64,000 nucleotides of DNA, from assembly GCF_003217215.1 (NCBI RefSeq), contig NZ_QJTD01000001.1:1-64000 (forward strand), read 5' to 3'. This DNA is from Winogradskyella epiphytica (GTDB taxonomy: Bacteria > Bacteroidota > Bacteroidia > Flavobacteriales > Flavobacteriaceae). Below, piece after piece: positions 42,912 to 58,658 of the stretch. Position 1 is the stretch's first letter. Every line of letters starts with the position of its first letter. The notes beneath the pieces are model-generated. The model searched no databases. It was given only the letters and a program-made list of their open reading frames with translations, and had not been told where the DNA came from. The position numbers and the translations under genes are program-made.

Positions 42912-43924
42912 TGACCATTAATAATAATGTCTCATTAAAAGCGTATAATACCTTTGGAATAGACGCCAAAGCACAATCGTTTTGCAATATTACATCAATT
43001 AACGTCCTTGCCGATGTCTTAAAAAAACATCGGCAAGAGGCGTTATTTATCTTAGGAGGTGGCAGCAATATGCTCCTCACAAAAGATATCGATGCTTTAG
43101 TTCTTCATATCAATTTAAGAGGAATCGAAGTTGTACGCGAGACTCAAAACACCGTAATTGTTAAAGCTATGGCTGGTGAAAACTGGCATAATTTTGTCCT
43201 ATGGTGTTTAAAACATAATTATGGCGGCATTGAAAATTTATCTTTAATACCTGGAAATATAGGTACTGCTCCTATTCAAAATATAGGTGCTTATGGAGTT
43301 GAACTAAAGGATGTCTTTGTGAGCTGTGAAGCCATGAATATTGAAAATCAAACTATAGACAGCTTTACAAAAGAAGATTGCCATTTCGCTTATAGAGAAT
43401 CTATTTTTAAACAAGACTTAAAAGGGAAATATATAATAACAAGTGTCCAAATTGAGCTCACAAAAAACAATCATCAATTAAACACGGGTTACGGAGCCAT
43501 TCAAACCGAATTAAAAAATCGCAGAATAGAAACTCCAACTATACAGGATATTTCTGAAGCGATTATAGCCATTAGACAAAGTAAATTACCAGACCCAAAA
43601 AAAATTGGTAATTGTGGAAGCTTCTTCAAAAACCCTATAATTACTTTAGATTCGTTTTTAGAATTAGAAAGTAATTTCCCTGATGTCCCATCCTATAAAG
43701 TTTCAGATACTCACATAAAAGTACCAGCAGGTTGGCTTATTGAAAAAGCCGGTTTTAAAGGAAAGCGATTTAATGATCATGGGGTACACAGTAATCAAGC
43801 TTTGGTATTAGTTAATTATGGCAACGCAAGTGGAAAAGAAATTTTTGAACTAGCACAGTTAATCCAAAAAACTATTAAGCGACTATTTGATATTAAAATT
43901 GAGACTGAAGTTAATATAATATAA
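42911..43924 (+). CDS. murB: UDP-N-acetylenolpyruvoylglucosamine reductase
   Basis: 337 aa, type I MurB (E. coli length). FAD-binding motifs LFILGGGSNMLL and NLSLIPGNIGTAPIQNIGAYG, the substrate Arg (FAYRESIFK) and the proton-donor Ser in GNCGSFFKNP. NADPH-dependent step forming UDP-MurNAc. Translation is coupled to the preceding aminotransferase. A strong hairpin lies inside its 5' coding part (43001-43044). Confidence 0.97.
   Translation: MTINNNVSLKAYNTFGIDAKAQSFCNITSINVLADVLKKHRQEALFILGGGSNMLLTKDIDALVLHINLRGIEVVRETQNTVIVKAMAGENWHNFVLWCLKHNYGGIENLSLIPGNIGTAPIQNIGAYGVELKDVFVSCEAMNIENQTIDSFTKEDCHFAYRESIFKQDLKGKYIITSVQIELTKNNHQLNTGYGAIQTELKNRRIETPTIQDISEAIIAIRQSKLPDPKKIGNCGSFFKNPIITLDSFLELESNFPDVPSYKVSDTHIKVPAGWLIEKAGFKGKRFNDHGVHSNQALVLVNYGNASGKEIFELAQLIQKTIKRLFDIKIETEVNII
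43001..43044. other. Strong inverted repeat inside murB
   Basis: Perfect 11-bp arms CTTGCCGATGT (43007-43017) and ACATCGGCAAG (43027-43037) around a 9-base AT loop, with outer AACG/CGTT (43001-43004, 43041-43044). No T-run on either side, so it is not a terminator. Confidence 0.7.
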
Positions 43925-43927
43925 AAC

Positions 43928-43957
43928 AAAAGTCACAATTTTCATTGCGACTTTTGA
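43928..43957 (+). terminator. Terminator of murB
   Basis: AAAAGTCaCAA-TTTTCA-TTGcGACTTTT just past the stop codon. Confidence 0.75.
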
Positions 43958-44035
43958 CTTTAGAATAATTTGGTTTAAAAATGCTATTAATCAAACTCTT
44001 ACTAAGGTAAAACCATTCTAATATTGTATAATTAT

Positions 44036-44049
44036 CACCATTAATGGTG
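44036..44049. promoter_or_regulatory. Palindrome before the ECF sigma gene, possible operator
   Basis: CACCATTAATGGTG is a perfect 14-bp palindrome. It lies 76 bases before the sigma gene start and 12 bases upstream of a near -7 element (TATATTTA at 44062-44069), where it would overlap the promoter. Confidence 0.45.
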
Positions 44050-44125
44050 TAATTAATTATTTATATTTACGTGAATAAGTTCAATTTGGACGTTTCATAA
44101 CAGAAAATAACTATAATTTAACATT

Positions 44126-44659
44126 TTGAGCACTACTCCTACAGAAGATAAAATCATTGAACTCCTTGGTAAAGGAGATAAGCGTGCTTTAAACTTACTT
44201 TACGAAAATTACTCCAATAGTCTTTATGGTGTGATTCTAAAAATCACCATCAATGAAGAGATCGCTCAAGATGCTTTGCAGGAAACCTTTGTTAAAGTTT
44301 GGAAAAACGCTTCAAAATACGATGCTTCAAAAGCTAAGCTATTTACTTGGTTGTTTCGTATTGCGAGGAATACAGCCATTGATAAACTCAGAAGTTTCAA
44401 TAATCGCTTTCATAAAGAAGTCCAAATTGAAACTTCAGACGTATATATATTACCAACATCGAACTTTAATCAAGATGTCATGGACATCAAAGAACATGTT
44501 GGAAAACTAGAAGAAAAATATCAAATTGTGTTAGACGCATTGTTTTTTCAAGGCATGACACAACAAGAGGCTAGCGAAGAATTAGACATTCCTCTTGGCA
44601 CGATTAAATCTAGATTAAAAATAGGACTGCGCGAACTTAGAAAAGTTTACCATCCATAA
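44126..44659 (+). CDS. ECF RNA polymerase sigma factor
   Basis: 177 aa, sigma-70 ECF type. Region 2 (NLLYENYSNSLYGVILKI, ALQETFVKVWKNASKYD, FTWLFRIARNTAIDKLR) and region 4 helix-turn-helix (FQGMTQQEASEELDIPLGTIKSRLKIGLREL). The start is TTG at 44126; no in-frame ATG occurs before region 2. Followed 5 bases later by its anti-sigma gene. Confidence 0.94.
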   Translation: MSTTPTEDKIIELLGKGDKRALNLLYENYSNSLYGVILKITINEEIAQDALQETFVKVWKNASKYDASKAKLFTWLFRIARNTAIDKLRSFNNRFHKEVQIETSDVYILPTSNFNQDVMDIKEHVGKLEEKYQIVLDALFFQGMTQQEASEELDIPLGTIKSRLKIGLRELRKVYHP

Positions 44660-44670
44660 ATTATTTGATC

Positions 44671-45471
44671 ATGGAAACAAAATTAAACAACTTTTTAAAC
44701 TCAGACCTTCTCAGTCGGTATTTGGTCGGAGACACTTCTTTGGAAGAATCTAAGGAGGTAGAACATTTTATTTCGAATTACCCGAAAGCAGCACAAGCAT
44801 TTGATGAGCTTCAGAATAATATAGAAATTGTAGCAAAAGTTGGAGCTGAAGAAGCACCAAATCATATCTTAAGCAATATCTTAGATGCCATAGAAGATAA
44901 ACCTACGGATTCTAAAGTAATTCATATGGCTCAGAGCAGAAGAACACCTTGGTTTAGTTTTGCGGCGAGTGTAGCTGCTGTAGTATTTGCAGTGACCTCA
45001 TTTATGCTTTATCAAAAAAATCTTCAACTAACTAGTGAAAACAATATCGTCGTTGAAGAAATTTATGATTTGCGTAGTGATATCGAATATAACAATTCGA
45101 AACTGGATGAATTATCAAGAGAGTTATTGAAATTAAACAATCCGAATTCTAAAAAATATGTCATAAACGGTAACGAACGTGCAAAGAATTTAAAGACGGT
45201 TGCATATATCAACCCTGTTGAAAAAACATCTATGATTGATGTTATTACATTACCTCGTTTACCAGAAGAGCAGCAATACCAAATTTGGGCAGAACTTCAG
45301 GACAGAATGGTTAACTTAGGGATCTTAGATGAGTCTGATCGTAAGTTGAAACAAATCCCTTATATGGAAGATGCCTTAGCATTAAGTATAAAGATTGGAA
45401 ACAAAGGTGACAATACAGAAGAAAATAGCACGGAAGTTGCTGAAATATCTCTAAAAGATAAAGAGAATTAG
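44671..45471 (+). CDS. Anti-sigma factor, RskA-like
   Basis: 266 aa from ATG 44671 (a TTG two codons earlier is less likely). N-terminal cytoplasmic part that would hold the sigma factor (SRYLVGDTSLEESKEVEHF), one transmembrane helix (about 92-112), a short coiled coil and a C-terminal periplasmic anti-sigma-K/RskA domain (LPEEQQYQIWAEL). The last RskA strand motif (GGSPxPT) is not seen and the tail is acidic. Should hold the upstream ECF factor at the inner membrane. Confidence 0.9.
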   Translation: METKLNNFLNSDLLSRYLVGDTSLEESKEVEHFISNYPKAAQAFDELQNNIEIVAKVGAEEAPNHILSNILDAIEDKPTDSKVIHMAQSRRTPWFSFAASVAAVVFAVTSFMLYQKNLQLTSENNIVVEEIYDLRSDIEYNNSKLDELSRELLKLNNPNSKKYVINGNERAKNLKTVAYINPVEKTSMIDVITLPRLPEEQQYQIWAELQDRMVNLGILDESDRKLKQIPYMEDALALSIKIGNKGDNTEENSTEVAEISLKDKEN

Positions 45472-56436: not shown

Positions 56437-57117
56437 ATGAAATCCTTATATCTAAGTTTAATCTGTTTGCTTTTATTTTCAGCATGTAAATCTGACCAAT
56501 CAGAAGCCATAAAAACGATTGAAACAAAAGAACTATCTATTGCCGAAAAAATAGCGAATGCTCATGGCTTTGAAAATTGGAATAATGTCTCTGAAGTCAA
56601 ATTTACATTTCAAGTGGATCAAGACAGCATTAAAGGAAAAGGAAGATCTTGGACATGGCAACCTAAAACGAATCATATAATAATGGCTACTGCTAAGAAC
56701 ACTGTAAAGTATTCCAGAAATGCTATGGATAGTACCCATATTGCTGCCGATAGGGCTTTTATCAATGATAAATTTTGGTTGTTAGTTCCATTTCAATTGG
56801 TATGGGATTCTAGTGCTAAAATATCTAAGGCAACTAAGGTTCACGCACCAATAAGTAAGACTGAACTTCATAAGATTACTATAAGCTATCCAAACGAAGG
56901 TGGATATACCCCAGGCGATGCTTATGATATTTTTTATGACAAAGATTATGTTATTAGGGAGTGGATTTTCAGAAAAGGAAATGCCGATGAACCATCATTA
57001 ACAACCACTTTTGAAAATTACAAAGACTTTAACGGCATTAAAATAGCAACTGACCATAAACAAGAGGGTGGAAAATGGAATTTGAATTTTACTGATATAA
57101 AAATAACATTGAAATAA
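56437..57117 (+). CDS. Hypothetical lipoprotein, DUF6503-like
   Basis: 226 aa with lipobox FSAC (Cys17). The mature part is a single beta-rich domain (VKFTFQVDQDSIKGKGRSW, FINDKFWLLVPFQLVWD, IRIAT-type end strands), similar to outer-membrane lipoprotein carrier-like folds. DUF6503 assignment is from memory of the pattern and needs a profile search. Divergent from the methyltransferase. Confidence 0.78.
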   Translation: MKSLYLSLICLLLFSACKSDQSEAIKTIETKELSIAEKIANAHGFENWNNVSEVKFTFQVDQDSIKGKGRSWTWQPKTNHIIMATAKNTVKYSRNAMDSTHIAADRAFINDKFWLLVPFQLVWDSSAKISKATKVHAPISKTELHKITISYPNEGGYTPGDAYDIFYDKDYVIREWIFRKGNADEPSLTTTFENYKDFNGIKIATDHKQEGGKWNLNFTDIKITLK

Positions 57118-57139
57118 TACGGCTTTCGAAAATAGGACT

Positions 57140-57147
57140 TACTTTTG
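57140..57147 (+). promoter_or_regulatory. -7 element of the candidate small RNA
   Basis: TACTTTTG in the intergenic region, 9 bases before a long hairpin. No clear -33 box. Confidence 0.5.
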
Positions 57148-57149
57148 TA

Positions 57150-57268
57150 ACCTGTAGTATAAGGTTCACGTCTAAAGTCTCACTTTAAAACGTATATCTT
57201 ATACTTTCCGCCTTTTGGCGTCTATATATATAAAGCACTTCTGTCTTTGGTAGAAGTGCTTTCTTTAT
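57150..57268 (+). ncRNA. Candidate structured small RNA (6S-like possible)
   Basis: Between a lipoprotein gene and a convergent kinase gene. After a TAnnTTTG element come: a roughly 50-nt hairpin built from three nested pairs (AGTATAAG 57156-57163 with CTTATACT 57198-57205; ACGT 57168-57171 with ACGT 57190-57193; AAAGT 57174-57178 with ACTTT 57182-57186), a small GC hairpin CGCC-TTTT-GGCG (57209-57220), and a perfect 11-bp terminator stem. The result would be a transcript of about 115 nt with no ORF. The interrupted long stem recalls 6S RNA, but I cannot assign a family. Confidence 0.5.
57232..57268. terminator. Terminator, candidate sRNA / histidine kinase
   Basis: Perfect stem AAAGCACTTCT (57232-57242) / AGAAGTGCTTT (57252-57262), then CTTTATTT on the plus strand. 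On the minus strand the tail is weaker (TATATATA). Confidence 0.85.
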
Positions 57269-57275
57269 TTAAACA

Positions 57276-58658
57276 TTAACGATTAACATTATCGGATATA
57301 CTAAACATAAAAGTAGCACCTTCTCCTTCTTTACTTTCTAAGGTTAATTTCCCACCTAGCAATTCTACATAAGCTTTAGCTACAGACAAACCAATTCCAG
57401 ACCCATGTAATGCCTTAGTCTGTTGTAAATCGACTTGGTAAAATGGGTTAAATACAACATCTATTTTATCATTTGGAATTCCAACACCTGTATCGGAAAT
57501 AATGAATTGCAATTCAGAACTACCACGATCACAGCTTAAGGTAACTTTATCGCCTTTTGATGAGAATTTTATCGCATTCATTAATAAACTCTTTAATACG
57601 GATGTTACTTTATCATTATCAGAGATTATGATTTGTTCACCCTCAGCTATATTATTGAAAAGATCAAACTGAATTCCTTTTTGTTCCGCCTCAAGTAAAA
57701 ATTTTTGGTGGACAGTCTCAATGATTTCATTGATATTAAACGTACCTATATTAAGTGACACTAATCCCGTTTGAATTTTTGAAATATCTAAAATATCCGT
57801 AATAACATCTAGTAATTTAGATCCATTACTTTCAATGATATCCACATACTCTGTAAATTCTTCATCATTTACAGGTTGATAGTCCTTGAGAAGTTCAACA
57901 CTTCCCAAAATACCATACATAGGTGTTCTAATTTCATGACTTATATTTGTTAAAAAGGCTGACTTTAATTGATCTGACTGCTCCGCTCTTTCTTTCTCTA
58001 TAAGCACACTCTCATGTTTTTCAAGAAGTTCAGCCTGCAGTTCGCTCTCCTTAACAAAAGCTTCATCTAATTGAGCAATTAAAAATGAAAGAGAAAACAC
58101 GGTTAATATATTAAACACAATATTATTGGCTAGAACAATAAGTAAGACTTCGAATTGTAGTCCTTCGAACGACTCTATGTGAAACCATTCAAATTTAAAT
58201 GCACAGATGAGCAATATATAAAATAACGCAACCACCATTATAGCTGCCATTCCTGATCTCCATCCTGCAATTAAAGTAATCAGAACAATCATTGTAAACA
58301 ACAGAACAGTTGCGGTACTATTAAAGCCTAATTCCACAAGTAAAAAAGAGGATAACAAAAACCAATTTATAGAAAATAGAAGCTTTCGTGTTTTTAACGC
58401 AAGTCGTTTATTAAAAATAGTTATTAGAAGAATTACAACAGCGATGCTATCAAGGTAAAAGACAGTCCATTTATCCAATACAATTGCAATTACTACACTT
58501 GGAACGTATGAAATGACACTAAGAACAAAACTTAAAATTAAAATAGATATGAATAATTTATCTCTAAAATAGACTAGGCTTCCTTTTTCTCGATCCATCG
58601 AAAACCCGATGTAATCACTATAACGACCTATATAAGACGTCCATATTGTTTTTAACAT
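57276..58658 (-). CDS. Membrane-bound sensor histidine kinase
   Basis: 460 aa: about six transmembrane helices in the first 195 residues, a short coiled coil, HisKA with phospho-acceptor His241 (SHEIRTPMYGI) and HATPase (LMNAIKFSSKG, DTGVGIP, GSGIGLSVAKAY). No periplasmic sensor domain of size and no receiver. No response regulator gene is adjacent. Confidence 0.94.
   Translation of the reverse strand: MLKTIWTSYIGRYSDYIGFSMDREKGSLVYFRDKLFISILILSFVLSVISYVPSVVIAIVLDKWTVFYLDSIAVVILLITIFNKRLALKTRKLLFSINWFLLSSFLLVELGFNSTATVLLFTMIVLITLIAGWRSGMAAIMVVALFYILLICAFKFEWFHIESFEGLQFEVLLIVLANNIVFNILTVFSLSFLIAQLDEAFVKESELQAELLEKHESVLIEKERAEQSDQLKSAFLTNISHEIRTPMYGILGSVELLKDYQPVNDEEFTEYVDIIESNGSKLLDVITDILDISKIQTGLVSLNIGTFNINEIIETVHQKFLLEAEQKGIQFDLFNNIAEGEQIIISDNDKVTSVLKSLLMNAIKFSSKGDKVTLSCDRGSSELQFIISDTGVGIPNDKIDVVFNPFYQVDLQQTKALHGSGIGLSVAKAYVELLGGKLTLESKEGEGATFMFSISDNVNR

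Follow-up and report, generated by a model that had tools for sequence, protein, structure and literature searches.

The intergenic DNA at 57152-57268 (+) of the window, a stretch of 64,000 nucleotides from one contig of Winogradskyella epiphytica, very probably holds a genuine and uncatalogued small RNA gene, which is present in many Flavobacteriaceae and is seemingly linked to a stress-type sigma factor. As judged by comparison of sequences, the analysis confirms the element as a conserved RNA gene with promoter-like elements and a terminator of its own. The reading that we favour, and consider likely, is that this is the gene of a Flavobacteriaceae-wide, trans-acting sRNA linked to an ECF sigma factor, whose promoter has been exchanged in Winogradskyella.

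To our knowledge, few regulatory RNAs have been characterised in Bacteroidota beyond Bacteroides and Flavobacterium psychrophilum. The sRNA would therefore be a concrete, testable RNA regulator in a mostly marine family with few known. The RNA family extends across dozens of Flavobacteriaceae genera and has a predicted sigma factor whose gene keeps a conserved place nearby, which makes an envelope-type sRNA arm in this phylum directly testable. The promoter exchange, if true, would be a clear case of regulatory DNA turned into RNA structure.

Structure of the RNA gene

The features of the locus are as follows.

57140-57147 (+): P1, TACTTTTG, a sigma-A type -7 box; predicted start of the long RNA near 57152
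57152-57268 (+): predicted long RNA, about 117 nt, with predicted ends (match to model R1 at 57151-57268; fold z-score -6.9)
57156-57205 (+): interrupted 5′ stem of 50 nt, with an outer helix, a 4-bp inner helix and a variable apical hairpin; Winogradskyella-type copies only
57168-57176 (+): -35-like block of P2, ACGTCTAAA, given a matrix score jointly with the -10 block
57191-57198 (+): -10-like block of P2, CGTATATC, after a 14-nt spacer, as in the family; predicted start of the short RNA near 57200-57206
57203-57268 (+): predicted short RNA, about 66 nt, the conserved family core, with predicted ends (match to model R2 at 57159-57268; alignment A3)
57209-57220 (+): core hairpin CGCC-TTTT-GGCG, from the letters and the fold
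57221-57231 (+): unpaired stretch TCTATATATAT, which the family alignments show to be strongly conserved; candidate for a seed or for a protein site
57232-57262 (+): intrinsic terminator AAAGCACTTCTGTCTTTGGTAGAAGTGCTTT, from the terminator scan

The original prediction was of a structured RNA built from a TAnnTTTG element, a 50-nt stem with internal loops, a GC tetraloop-type hairpin and a terminator, without an ORF. All of these parts are present: the TAnnTTTG element is P1, the stem is returned by folding, the hairpin is the one at 57209-57220, and the terminator is recovered by a scan that gives 2 sites in 2.5 kb against 1.0 expected. The window RNA contains no ATG, and a small ORF is therefore out. 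A second promoter-like element, not part of that prediction, lies within the 5′ stem at 57168-57198.

The predicted fold of the RNA has an energy of -38.3 kcal/mol against a mean of -16.4 for shuffled sequences, none of the 200 shuffles being equal to it. With the terminator removed the z-score is still -5.7, and again none of 200 shuffles equals it.

Comparison with known RNA families

A scan of the window against Rfam 15, which had been proposed as a check, gave nothing over a gathering score except a tRNA at 1178-1250, so that no family reaches its cut-off at the sRNA locus; eight homologous loci likewise gave no family over its gathering score. The best Rfam score in the region is 22.1 bits, for the Bacteroides sRNA BTnc201 (RF04177), which is far under the 105-bit cut-off of that family, with good alignment confined to the terminator part.

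It had also been suggested that the RNA could be of the 6S type, which binds RNA polymerase, for instance a 6S-Flavo RNA. The Winogradskyella form does resemble 6S-Flavo (RF01685) in its length and in its interrupted helix. However, the RF01685 model (cut-off 85 bits) has no match at 57000-57400 even at E up to 10, and the genome's own 6S-Flavo gene is at a separate locus (contig C2, 538167-538296), where it scores 90 bits, over the cut-off. Flavo-1 (RF01705) has its own locus elsewhere in the genome too; both families are listed in PMC2864571. Because 6S-Flavo and Flavo-1 have separate loci and nothing here reaches a cut-off, the 6S reading is rejected, and these and the other Rfam families are ruled out. 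In addition, the long stem is missing from the consensus of the wider family. A 6S-type RNA at this locus is thus barely conceivable. No description of the sRNA was found in the literature searched, which consisted of open-licence PubMed Central papers.

Conservation within Winogradskyella

A blastn search with 57118-57275 finds matches in 31 of 36 other Winogradskyella genomes, and a single match in the window's own genome. Four of the five negative genomes (G015, G007, G035 and G011) nevertheless have the core, according to model R1 and inspection, while the match in G012 is a plain terminator and not a copy of the RNA. A pattern search gave 52 matches, of which 45 were kept; the other 7, from unrelated taxa, were set aside uninspected as chance.

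Covariation across orthologous regions was another of the proposed checks, and the stems do covary in the 29 aligned Winogradskyella copies (alignment A1, which holds 29 of 30 loci, L024 being left out). Over 25 pairs, 99.3% of the cells are paired, and 9 pairs have changed on both sides. Of five covariation measures, four were reached by none of 500 shuffles, and one, which counts further pair types, by 26 of 500. In the 5′ stem, the outer helix has 100% of its cells paired and the inner helix 96.6%. Two compensatory changes, one from A-U to G-C and one from G-C to A-U, are present in the outer stem of the window's own copy.

Distribution across the Flavobacteriaceae

The matches to R1 across the family share a common core, consisting of a UUCCGC hairpin, the sequence GCGyCUAUAUAUA and a terminator. 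Model R2 was made from 25 sequences, all of them from genera other than Winogradskyella, and its sole match in the window genome is the window copy (E=1.8e-10). At E<=0.001, R2 has matches in 144 of the 397 genomes of Flavobacteriaceae, and in 94 of their 237 genera, a tally that includes some false matches: of ten weak matches inspected, eight of them from Flavobacteriaceae, six were real and four false. All searches over more than 40 genomes, including the R1 and R2 surveys, used stricter filters, by which weak matches are lost.

Alignment A3 contains 99 loci, made up of 98 family members and the window. The stem of the core hairpin is CGC/GCG in 98 of the 99 loci and compensated to CAC/GUG in the remaining one. 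The fourth pair of this hairpin is canonical in 72 of 99 loci, against 49.5 by shuffling, a count reached by none of 2000 shuffles, and the loops include UUCG and GNRA types. In the terminator, 13 of the 14 modelled pairs show changes on both sides across the family; this count includes two reverse-strand terminator matches (rows 100 and 101 of A3), which are outside the 99-locus counts. Conservation is strong in the stem of the hairpin and in the AU-rich single strand, whereas the terminator drifts in sequence; the family-wide consensus has no long 5′ stem. A long-range pairing between the CGTATA and CTATATA blocks was considered and dropped, covariation support being absent.

In the sample of the order, no member was found outside the Flavobacteriaceae, the two matches from other families (G059 and G661) being plain terminators. 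Within the family, the 81 genomes of g147, presumably the genus Flavobacterium, showed no copy of the core. There, 62 genomes have no match and 19 have weak matches at E<=0.1, and none of the 20 loci concerned shows the core hairpin (L274 is seen only in part); the complete ones are plain terminators.

Genomic neighbourhood

In the window, the RNA gene lies between the following two genes.

56437-57117 (+): lipoprotein gene, 226 aa, the usual upstream neighbour, from its ORF
57276-58658 (-): convergent histidine kinase gene (MASE11, HisKA and HATPase domains), from its ORF and domains

The region had been described as facing a convergent gene, and this gene is the MASE11 histidine kinase. At 77 of 96 loci across the family, the first gene on the downstream side is convergent; it encodes a CDGSH Fe-S protein in 52 and a ClpP-like protein in 23. 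Directly upstream, among the 99 loci, there is the lipoprotein gene in 54, a reversed FAD monooxygenase gene in 13, a photolyase-related gene in 10 and a reversed methyltransferase gene in 8. The FAD monooxygenase is read as kynurenine 3-monooxygenase, its best NCBIfam score, for VioC, being under the cut-off.

The position next to the lipoprotein gene bears on the alternative that had been named in the original prediction, namely that the region is only the 3′ UTR of that gene. In a broader form of this alternative, the lipoprotein mRNA would have the RNA as its structured 3′ UTR and terminator, or an sRNA would be released from that 3′ UTR by cleavage. The 54 loci with the lipoprotein gene immediately upstream, on the same strand, are in its favour, as is the closeness of the lipoprotein stop codon to the start of the model (-22 to +28 nt in 44 of the 72 loci that have the gene). 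At three Winogradskyella-type loci (L021, L027 and L029) the stop codon is followed, two bases on, by the conserved block, with no TAnnTTTG, and for this reason the RNA of these three may be processed from the lipoprotein mRNA. Against it, the upstream gene is reversed in 26 of the 99 loci, and a different co-directional gene is there in 19 more. In two of the 26 (L051 and L062) a broken lipoprotein gene remains in between; at L051 the RNA is intact beside this seemingly decayed gene, as it is at L056, where another ORF has been inserted. Since the RNA persists beside an apparently decayed gene, behind an inserted ORF and among varied neighbours, it needs a promoter of its own and is not simply a 3′ UTR, and the core is preceded by promoter-like blocks at fixed spacing. 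A mere 3′ UTR of the lipoprotein gene is thus rejected from the synteny, and we regard the broader form as distinctly improbable.

An RNA that has a terminator and no ATG, and that stays in place when the upstream gene is reversed, is a free-standing terminated RNA. The proposal of an unannotated, structured and undescribed sRNA with its own promoter and terminator is supported by its conservation, its covariation, the lack of an Rfam match and its survival where the upstream gene looks decayed, is a different one or is reversed.

The downstream side raises a different question, which is whether the conserved blocks 5′ of the core are a transcription-factor site, or part of the leader or attenuator of a neighbouring gene, rather than the promoter of an sRNA. 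The downstream gene is co-directional in 19 of 96 loci, being kynureninase in 14, and one other site of this motif in the window genome (L258) lies ahead of a terminator-like hairpin, with a gene beyond it. However, the prevalence of convergent downstream genes, from differing families, argues against this explanation, which appears very improbable.

Putative promoters

The original prediction relied on the TAnnTTTG element, which corresponds to the -7 box placed at -12 to -5 in PMC9723704. By itself the element is uninformative, because the window contains 108 bare TAnnTTTG sequences against 97 expected; what counts is its conservation in position. In Winogradskyella, exact TAnnTTTG is present in 33 of 45 distinct Winogradskyella-type upstream regions, six others having one mismatch and six having none of it (L066, where the site was mis-picked, is excluded from the 45). 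Elsewhere the element is absent, being found near the model start in 0 of 98 family members, with the window as the single match, compared with 2.5% of random 38-nt segments.

Outside Winogradskyella, the sRNA is instead preceded by the blocks ACATCCAAA-N13/14-CGTATATA. Of 96 loci scored, 88 have a spacer of 13 or 14 nt, three of the 99 loci having no CGTA match, and the spacer sequence is not conserved. The hairpin begins at distances of 15 to 33 from CGTA across the family loci, with one left unmeasured. We infer from the letters and the spacing that these blocks are a promoter of the ECF-sigma type. The combination of a -35 block and a CGT-type -10 block at fixed spacing is found in the family and in the window copy, and is missing from most other Winogradskyella copies.

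On a matrix derived from 94 family members, P2 of the window (ACGTCTAAA-N14-CGTATATC) scores 20.6 bits, whereas the maximum is 9.3 bits among 604 random segments and 8.5 bits among the other Winogradskyella-type copies. The family members themselves have a median of 24.4, a lower quartile of 20.8 and a minimum of -1.5. In Winogradskyella the -35-like block is mostly lost, and the start directed by TAnnTTTG would be at the foot of the new stem that contains the old promoter DNA. The window copy carries both types of promoter, P1 and P2. One other Winogradskyella genome, G007, retains ECF-like blocks, read by eye as AAATCCAAC-N14-CGTATATA.

A simple explanation would be that the window copy is ancestral. 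This was dropped, because a tree of the lipoprotein (one protein, with a midpoint root) places the window inside Winogradskyella and not at its base. It follows that P2 has either been retained, with repeated loss elsewhere in the genus, or been regained; the ECF-like promoter of the window may be regained or may in part be a chance match.

Neither promoter is recognisable at six Winogradskyella-type loci (L021, L023, L027, L029, L068 and L080). A further Winogradskyella locus, L321 in G011, has kept the core hairpin with neither promoter type.

Recurrence of the motif and a candidate sigma factor

Across 30 genomes the pattern ATCYAAA-N12-15-CGTATATA has 98 sites, compared with 6 when the control, its reverse, is searched; these genomes were mostly picked from carriers of the RNA, and 16 of the 98 sites were counted as the RNA's own promoter. 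The motif also recurs ahead of envelope genes. In the window genome, sites of this motif precede genes for an OmpA-family lipoprotein, a DUF4382 lipoprotein and a secreted coiled-coil-like protein. Some matches are not promoters, since those inside rpsB (spacer 12) are a coding coincidence.

The genome has 17 sigma-70-type matches, and a scan of the DNA before the first ATG of these gave one strong site, at the gene for an ECF sigma factor.

44126-44659 (+): ECF sigma factor gene, candidate controller (Pfam sigma-70 regions 2 and 4 and ECF); motif inside and divergent
44665-45471 (+): putative anti-sigma factor gene, directly 3′ of the ECF gene (RskA_C at 23.9 bits, below the Pfam cut-off of 29.4)

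The motif site lies within the ECF gene, at 44418-44448 (+), upstream of the anti-sigma gene. It is in the same place in 14 of 14 ECF loci, with 20.6-27.0 bits, a count that is biased because nine of the loci were fetched by pattern match and that of the window was found with the matrix, the other four being chosen by position only. The count of divergent sites is unaffected by this selection: a second, divergent site is present at 11 of the 14 loci, with 12.8-22.1 bits. The intragenic motif may be an internal, autoregulatory promoter. It keeps the codons GTA TAT in all 14 loci, although as an argument for a promoter this is weak, the same ten loci having been selected for the motif; the four that were not include three from Winogradskyella.

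Ten genomes, that of the window and nine others, have the ECF site and the RNA on the same strand, 10.5-14.3 kb apart. Six further genomes were analysed over a stretch near the RNA only. Four of these have the ECF gene at a distance of 14-16 kb; the stretches fetched for G025 and G267 gave no ECF ortholog. G211 has an ECF-type site, by letters only, with no match to R2. On account of the linkage and the shared motif, the ECF sigma factor at 44126-44659 is the best candidate for the controller of the sRNA.

A second putative small RNA is found at 43922-44093 (-), divergent from the ECF sigma gene. It has promoter-like blocks, ACGTCCAAA-N13-CGTAAATAT, which score 22.1 bits, followed by a hairpin and then a terminator near 43928-43955. 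Neither the window copy nor ten of the ECF loci gave an Rfam match for it.

Relation to known systems

In enterobacteria, the sigma-E dependent sRNAs such as MicA and RybB are short, end in a terminator, and are transcribed from an ECF promoter together with envelope genes; they act in trans by base pairing with mRNAs. No sequence relation to the window RNA is claimed, and the phylum is different.

Closer to home, the account of F. psychrophilum in PMC9723704 includes SM6, a motif of the ECF type that has a CGT box at -10 and drives T9SS and membrane genes. The SM6 list there contains genes of the T9SS and Band-7 kinds, an ECF/anti-sigma pair, and an sRNA, Rfp11. Rfp11 is the closest published analogue of the window RNA, as likened by promoter class and description and not by sequence: it is an SM6-listed sRNA from the same bacterial family, described there as predicted to be strongly structured and as conserved in other species. 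However, the core of the window RNA is not seen in the 81 genomes of g147. Rfp18 of Flavobacterium resembles the window RNA in being a conserved flavobacterial sRNA with several stem-loops, and its deletion lowers two metalloprotease mRNAs, according to the same paper. It is also described there as widely conserved in Flavobacterium, where the window RNA is not seen, if g147 is that genus.

Proposed mechanism

In its ancestral form the RNA would be short, of about 65 nt, and consist of the UUCCGC hairpin, the unpaired yCUAUAUAUA and the terminator. It would be made from the ECF-sigma-type promoter described above, the likely sigma factor being that of the ECF/anti-sigma pair 10-16 kb away, whose genes carry the same motif. 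In most Winogradskyella, a housekeeping promoter of the TAnnTTTG type is proposed to have arisen upstream, so that the old promoter DNA would now be transcribed and fold into the extra 5′ stem. In the window, P1 would give a transcript of about 117 nt and P2 one of about 66 nt.

Action in trans is the most likely, with the UUCC and CUAUAUAUA segments base-pairing with mRNAs. We prefer base pairing on account of the strong conservation of the hairpin stem, of UUCC and of CUAUAUAUA, in contrast to a terminator whose sequence varies freely. The same pattern of a conserved hairpin stem and AU-rich single strand beside a drifting terminator would also be expected of a protein site, and the RNA could instead titrate an RNA-binding regulator protein. 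Sequence alone cannot separate titration from pairing; titration, the main alternative, seems to us rather unlikely. On the preferred reading, as an sRNA that pairs with mRNAs, the unpaired stretch is a candidate for the seed.

A wider reading is possible, though we put it forward only tentatively. In this, the Flavobacteriaceae ECF sigma/anti-sigma pair would have a small-RNA arm, made up of the present RNA and the unrelated, divergent RNA. In Winogradskyella the present RNA would have been captured by a housekeeping promoter, and the old ECF promoter DNA would have become a covarying RNA stem. In the window species, a single sequence would thus serve both as ECF promoter and as RNA structure, and one gene would give a long and a short RNA.

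Other arrangements of the motif

At L258 (contig C2 of the window genome, near 9322), and at its relatives L245 and L251, a short terminator-like hairpin comes after the motif, and the gene for the secreted coiled-coil-like protein after the hairpin, an arrangement that looks like a leader or attenuator. We also note that a T-run ending in TTTTTTAAC recurs just upstream of the -35-like block at L191, L192, L199, L209 and L210, and likewise at L212, L287, L288 and L289.
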